A stretch of DNA of 38,950 nt, taken from contig PMHK01000189.1 in NCBI GenBank assembly GCA_003156635.1, positions 9,389 through 48,338 of the forward strand. The letters run 5' to 3'. Position 1 is the stretch's first letter; each line of letters starts with the position of its first letter. The notes under the pieces are model-generated. The model worked only from the letters and a program-made list of their open reading frames with translations. It was not told the DNA's origin and ran no database searches. Of this stretch, positions 9,088 through 9,752 are shown one piece after another. A program made the position numbers and the translations under genes. This stretch comes from Acidobacteriota bacterium (GTDB taxonomy: Bacteria > Acidobacteriota > Terriglobia > Acidiferrales > UBA7541).

Positions 9088-9161
9088 CTCTGTTAGCTTT
9101 CTCGCCTCGCTTGCCCAGTCGTCGTTGACAATCATTCTTCGCGAAGTATCATCAATTTAGT

Positions 9162-9224
9162 GGCGAAGGGGTTCGCCCTCAACCGCTGTCCTTCTTGCGC
9201 CGGGACAGATGATGACTCCTGACA
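9162..9224 (+). ncRNA. Fluoride riboswitch (crcB RNA motif)
   Basis: GGCGAAGGGGTTCGCCCTCAACCGCTGTCCTTCTTGCGCCGGGACAGATGATGACTCCTGAC: P1-like stem GGCGA/TCGCC; P3 CTGTCC/GGACAG; pseudoknot GGGGT with ACTCC (one G-U); AACCGC and ATGAC..CCTG conserved blocks; upstream of crcB. Confidence 0.93.
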
Positions 9225-9338
9225 ATGATGAATTGTCGCGGAGCCATGTCCCCGGCAAATCATCCCAGAAAAATTCAAGAGCGCGTTCCGAAGGAAGGCG
9301 AGCGTCGTGTCTCCTTCGGCAAAAAGGACAGAAACGGA

Positions 9339-9752
9339 ATGACCAAATACTGGATGGTTGCATTGGGTGGAGCAGTGGGTTCCGTGCTTCGATTTTGGGT
9401 AGGCGGCAACGTAGCCGATCGCCTGGGCACGCGCTTTCCCTACGGCACGTTTGCGGTGAACATCACCGGCTCGTTCCTCATCGGCTTGGTTCTCACCTTG
9501 GTTTCCGAACGCGTAAACGTGAATCCGAATTGGCGATACCTGATCGGCGTAGGTTTTATCGGCGGCTATACGACATTTTCCGCTTTCGAATATGAAACGT
9601 TTCAGAGCATGCAGGATGGGAAAATGCTGATCGCCTCGCTCAACGTGATCTTAAGCGTCGCGATCGGACTGATTTGCGTGTGGTTGGGAGTTGCCGCTGC
9701 CCGGGCGCTGGACATAATCTTAAATTTCCCCGGCACTTCTACAGTTTCTTGA
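9339..9752 (+). CDS. crcB: Fluoride ion channel/exporter CrcB (Fluc)
   Basis: ORF 9225..9752; preferred start ATG 9339 (MTKYWMVALGGAVGSVLRFWVGG) after AAAAAGGACAG. Motifs GTFAVNITGSFLIG, GFIGGYTTFSAFEYET. Confidence 0.95.
   Translation: MTKYWMVALGGAVGSVLRFWVGGNVADRLGTRFPYGTFAVNITGSFLIGLVLTLVSERVNVNPNWRYLIGVGFIGGYTTFSAFEYETFQSMQDGKMLIASLNVILSVAIGLICVWLGVAAARALDIILNFPGTSTVS

Follow-up and report, generated by a model that had tools for sequence, protein, structure and literature searches.

The leader of crcB in an Acidobacteriota bacterium raises the question of how a fluoride aptamer may act on its gene when no intrinsic terminator follows it, a mode of action less well worked out for fluoride riboswitches than the terminator type. 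The leader lies in a 38,950-nt stretch of contig PMHK01000189.1 that was analysed as a whole (the window). According to the original prediction, the 5' strand of aptamer helix P3 is a perfect 8-bp complement of the Shine-Dalgarno (SD) region of crcB, the two pair in the absence of fluoride, and the P3 3' strand and the SD compete directly for this one partner.

The aptamer, its promoter and the crcB gene

The elements of the leader and the gene are as follows.

9125-9152, + strand: sigma-70-like promoter TTGACA-16-TATCAT, 11 of 12 consensus matches
9153-9228, + strand: fluoride riboswitch aptamer RF01734 (cmscan, 37.8 bits; gathering score, 34)
9162-9165/9174-9177, + strand: aptamer P1
9168-9172/9215-9219, + strand: aptamer pseudoknot, one pair being G-U
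9186-9191/9203-9208, + strand: aptamer P3, with GGACAG (9203-9208) as its 3' strand
9339-9752, + strand: crcB, fluoride exporter of the Fluc family, 137 aa (PF02537, E 4.6e-31), start codon ATG 9339-9341

The covariance search thus recovers the predicted aptamer, and the fluoride-resistance gene downstream of it is crcB, as had been claimed. In the window, cmscan reports this single fluoride aptamer and one tRNA gene, and RF01734 has no other match in the 4.18-Mb assembly. P1, P3 and the pseudoknot between the P1 loop and the 3' segment are all present. Among 27 aligned relatives, 94.6% of the cells of these three helices are paired, and double changes occupy 11 cells, versus 3.8 in shuffles. 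The consensus core GAUGG (P1/L1) is not fully matched, since the window has GAAGG (9165-9169), which departs from it by one nucleotide; the same A is found in many relatives (alignment A1), and GAUGG is not required by the RF01734 score threshold, which the window passes. A subgroup of relatives in alignment A1 has GGCCAAGGAGTTCGGCC in place of GAUGG or GAAGG.

From the promoter-like site, transcription is predicted to start at about 9158-9160, directly at P1. For comparison, 42 crcB leaders of the aptamer-plus-hairpin architecture described below, from 18 genera, were collected, many of them from incomplete assemblies and with SD and start positions inferred from tblastn and sequence. Promoter-like matches of at least 9/12 are found in the 60 bases upstream at 32 of these loci, with the -10 ending 3-14 nt 5' of the element. 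Judged from its sequence, the window leader is a genuine fluoride riboswitch, with a predicted response to ligand.

The nearest named relative of the window CrcB in the genome collection is from an Acidobacteria MAG (62% identical), followed by proteins from MAGs and Geobacterales (45-52%). An in-frame upstream ATG at 9246 (GGAGCCATG) was rejected as the start codon, because its SD is too close and the orthologues begin at the position of 9339. The crcB reading frame stays open through the leader that separates the gene from the aptamer (ORF 9225-9752); given where the orthologues begin, this open stretch (9225-9338) is probably due to chance.

In some relatives the aptamer is repeated. Matches number 6-13 per genome, often clustered and sometimes in divergent pairs, in G014, G007, G024, G009, G927, G933, G938, G848, G854 and G883, and the clusters are apparent fluoride-regulon islands. 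By eye, translations of genes beside the aptamers in L032 and L054 resemble enolase, inorganic pyrophosphatase, a metallophosphatase, a NUDIX hydrolase, MutS-like ATPases and a DnaB-like protein. At L209, L210, L199, L188 and L161, the aptamer and a U-tract-free hairpin precede a membrane protein of about 400 aa that starts M(E/Q)NVW and looks, from its sequence, like a cation/proton antiporter.

Complementarity of P3 to the SD region

9186-9193, + strand: P3 5' strand CTGTCCTT, predicted anti-SD once out of P3, exact reverse complement of 9324-9331
9324-9331, + strand: crcB SD region AAGGACAG, with an AAGGA core, 10 nt before the ATG

The claimed 8-bp complementarity is confirmed to the base, all four coordinates of the original prediction (9186-9193, 9203-9208, 9324-9331 and 9339) being exact. 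On the + strand of the window, AAGGACAG occurs once and CTGTCCTT three times. When the leader is dinucleotide-shuffled, the P3 5' strand finds a perfect 8-bp match within the 24 nt that precede the start codon in 0.8-1.4% of cases; shuffles of the SD region give such a match in 1.9-2.6%, and 1.5% of mismatched P3/SD pairs from the 42 related loci also reach 8 bp. By sequence alone, therefore, the match is unlikely but not extraordinary.

These frequencies speak for a coincidence, in which purine-rich SDs meet a pyrimidine-rich P3 5' strand (CTGTCC being nearly fixed) and this genome has drawn a good match. The number of loci that reach 8 bp (two of 42, with 0.6 expected) and the lack of the pairing in the nearest relatives (see below) point the same way. 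However, coincidence does not account for the extension of the window helix to 12 pairs and its dominance of the fold, or for the above-null pairing at other loci, and it is regarded as improbable. Were it correct, the lesson would be that purine-rich SDs easily give convincing pairings with pyrimidine-rich aptamer strands.

Predicted folds of the leader

9199-9256, + strand: anti-aptamer hairpin (9199-9225 with 9233-9256), which takes up the P3 3' strand and the pseudoknot strand in the MFE fold and has no U-tract after it
9289-9318, + strand: local hairpin CCGAAGGA...TCCTTCGG just 5' of the SD, main-stem probability about 0.99 in the free fold

In the unconstrained fold of 9153-9345, 9186-9193 pairs with 9324-9331 with a probability of 0.88-1.0, and the proposal that this pairing represents the ligand-free state is supported to the extent that a predicted fold can support it. 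In the lowest-energy fold the helix is extended by pairing of 9195-9198 with 9319-9322 (12 of 13 positions paired). It encloses the hairpins 9199-9256 and 9289-9318, the latter of which shortens its loop. Leaving the SD unpaired costs 10.2 kcal/mol in the fold of 9153-9345, and the gain from SD pairing drops to 3.2 kcal/mol once the fold takes in the coding sequence as far as 9400.

When the aptamer is imposed, the SD bases are unpaired with probabilities of 0.45-0.94; the unpaired probability of the SD is 0.28 in the free fold and 0.70 with the aptamer part held away. Co-folding with and without the aptamer constraint thus agrees with the expected release of the SD, which is mostly freed. Re-sequestration of the SD by TGTCC (9247-9251) in the aptamer state was rejected, as its probability does not exceed 0.23 and the pairing is seen only when the pseudoknot is left unconstrained.

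Folding of growing transcripts from 9153 gives P1 and P3 up to 9228. By 9260, P3 is replaced by the anti-aptamer hairpin, and by 9345 the hairpin is kept and the P3 5' strand is on the SD. The energies used take no account of pseudoknots, ligand, ribosomes or RNA-binding proteins, and in this model the fold with the aptamer imposed is about 18 kcal/mol less stable than the free one. With a gap of this size, the switch would have to be made kinetically, while the RNA is being transcribed, as has been described for other fluoride riboswitches (PMC11077080).

The anti-aptamer hairpin

Within the hairpin, TGTCCCCGGC (9247-9256) is the partner of the P3 3' strand (GGACAG), and GGAG (9240-9243) that of the pseudoknot strand ACTCC. 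It is this capture of both strands that leaves the P3 5' strand free for the SD. A two-strand exchange between the P3 3' strand and the SD was rejected, because in free folds long enough to contain 9247-9256 the P3 3' strand is paired there. Of the proposed competition for one strand, the pairing of the P3 5' strand with the SD stands, reached through a relay by way of the hairpin, and the direct two-way exchange does not.

The hairpin-core pattern is found in 19 of 399 genomes of the class and, in an even draw from the phylum, in 3 of 396, all three of them already in the class draw. A covariance model of aptamer plus hairpin (R1) has matches in 118 of the 301 genomes of a related family and in 21 of the 89 genomes of the window's own family. 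In the 27 aligned loci the inner helix is 98.8% paired; part of it is fixed by the search pattern, the GAGTCATG and CCGGC parts being not fixed. (In alignment A1 an insertion was trimmed in G034 and G050; full leaders were used for all folds.) Covariation within the hairpin itself is not above shuffles in these 27 loci, as is expected of a helix on whose 5' strand the aptamer places constraints as well.

The loop of the hairpin may take part in a further pairing.

9225-9229, + strand: hairpin-loop segment ATGAT, possible pseudoknot with 9259-9263 (permutation test, 27 loci)
9259-9263, + strand: ATCAT, possible pseudoknot partner of the hairpin loop (permutation test, 27 loci)

In the 27 loci, with relatedness uncorrected, a loop's own partner beats those of other loci (permutation p = 0.0025 for length and 0.0003 for energy), which suggests a loop-to-downstream pseudoknot at the level of sequence.

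An intrinsic terminator was considered and rejected for the hairpin 9199-9256. No T-run after 9256 was found in the sequence or by a terminator scan, a run of five T is absent in 41 of the 42 related crcB loci, and the scan reports no terminator-like site at the hairpin in the window. Therefore, ordinary intrinsic termination is unlikely. The switch might nevertheless act at the hairpin, before crcB is reached, by Rho-dependent or other U-tract-free termination or by RNA decay, with the SD complementarity having no regulatory role. The hairpin is indeed common to the loci, 30 of the 42 show weak SD pairing or none, and the same aptamer-plus-hairpin element precedes other genes with SDs that lack a match to P3. 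The same absence of T-runs and of a terminator-like site in the window weighs against action at the hairpin, as does the finding that loci pair with their own SDs more often than with swapped tails (see below), which it leaves unexplained. It is judged unlikely, less so than coincidence.

Predicted P3-SD pairing in related loci

The four nearest scorable crcB orthologues are G017 and G011 of the same genus and G034 and G110 of the same family. All four keep the aptamer and the hairpin, and in all four the probability of pairing between the P3 5' strand and the SD is 0.00-0.03, without compensation; in G110 a weaker 8-bp P3/SD match remains, two of its pairs being G-U. The orthologues were not found to conserve CTGTCCTT/AAGGACAG. 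Such a loss was what the original prediction had named as its refutation, and by that criterion a conserved mechanism at the orthologous locus is refuted.

Beyond the orthologous locus, the P3 5' strand pairs with its own SD with a probability of at least 0.45 at 12 of the 42 loci (8 of 18 genera). When SD tails are swapped among loci, the number is 5.8 ± 2.0, and none of 45 swaps reaches 12. With the window left out, 11 loci stand against 5.7 in the null (0/45). The genus-averaged fraction is 0.263 versus 0.106 (1/45), or 0.244 versus 0.110 without the window (1/45), and the difference in SD exposure between the ON and OFF states is 0.096 versus 0.043 (0/45; 2/45 without the window). These comparisons are based on 45 permutations only, among relatives that are not independent, with relatedness handled by genus averaging alone.

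Other measures over the 42 loci are less clear. In the ligand-free fold, the SDs are on average no less exposed than in the swapped-tail null, and duplex tests of matched versus mismatched strands are not significant (p = 0.064-0.30). For own versus other P3 strands, the duplex test gives p = 0.02 (energy) in the first 8 crcB loci and 0.07 in all 42; such tests are weak on their own. Shuffling of the P3 loop gives -10.7 ± 0.29 kcal/mol, against -11.6 observed (0/200), a result that could also mirror constraints on P3 itself. In seven crcB loci of the family with a U-tract terminator after the aptamer, used as controls, the pairing probability is 0.00-0.07.

The positive loci differ in register and sequence, for example TCCTCTC/GAGAGGA in G050 and CCTCCTT/AAGGAGG in G836, and therefore represent independent solutions or chance, not one inherited pairing. 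In the predicted folds, P3-SD pairing is thus not unique to the window and recurs with different sequences above the swapped-tail null.

Proposed mechanism

From the sequence, the family membership, the recurrence of aptamer and hairpin in relatives and the predicted folds, we infer a ligand response, an order of events and a lowering of translation by SD pairing as follows. Transcription would begin from the promoter at 9125-9152, and P1 and P3 would form first on the emerging RNA. With fluoride, the pseudoknotted aptamer would persist, with P3 closed and the SD open. Without fluoride, the strand 9233-9256 would invade and pair with 9199-9225 (the P3 3' strand and the pseudoknot strand), dissolving the aptamer. 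The freed P3 5' strand CTGTCCTT would then pair with the SD at 9324-9331, about 130 nt downstream, and block translation of crcB.

A fluoride ON-switch of this kind, in which the hairpin sets the ligand-free state and the freed P3 5' strand acts as anti-SD, is given a probability of about one half. Its best supported part is the hairpin-set ligand-free state, for which known biology of the family and recurrence of the sequence argue. The translational platform appears, from the folds, plausible, recurrent and facultative, the SD step being a facultative add-on in a minority of relatives and not the defining step. Use of the P3 5' strand as anti-SD, if correct, would account for the control that a compact aptamer has over a start codon at a distance of more than 100 nt.

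More tentatively, the three-strand relay, in which the hairpin takes the P3 3' strand and the P3 5' strand becomes the anti-SD, may be a recurrent translational platform of fluoride riboswitches in this bacterial class, with the P3 loop tuned at each locus to the local SD. One aptamer hairpin would then be both sensor and repressor strand.

Comparison with known systems

That the aptamer and platform of fluoride riboswitches form mutually exclusive folds is established (PMC11077080, PMC13273304). In a transcriptional assay, 17% of the variants tested (323 of 1901) proved functional (PMC13273304). No literature on fluoride riboswitch platforms in Acidobacteriota was found in the search made; given this and the related systems below, the relay through the P3 5' strand and the SD is new as far as can be checked, and unproven.

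The transcriptional riboswitches of Bacillus cereus and Thermotoga petrophila have the same RF01734 aptamer (crcB motif) as the window, and in them, too, a hairpin further downstream takes up the 3' part of the aptamer when no ligand is bound (PMC11077080, PMC13273304). Their hairpin is an intrinsic terminator with a U-tract, whereas that of the window lacks the U-tract, and in the window the SD lies about 70 nt past the hairpin and is predicted to be covered by the freed P3 5' strand.

Translational fluoride riboswitches are represented by those of Pseudomonas syringae and Burkholderia pseudomallei, which have been used as translational controls (PMC13273304). Like the window, they have a fluoride aptamer before the gene and no intrinsic termination. 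In the window, the predicted anti-SD is the P3 5' strand itself, which would act over a range of about 130 nt.

In the add adenine riboswitch of Vibrio vulnificus, the SD is sequestered by an aptamer strand. The SD is hidden in the ligand-free states of this riboswitch and set free by ligand (PMC8342710). It is a translational ON-switch, as is proposed for the window, but with another ligand and fold, at short range, and with no separate anti-aptamer hairpin as intermediary.
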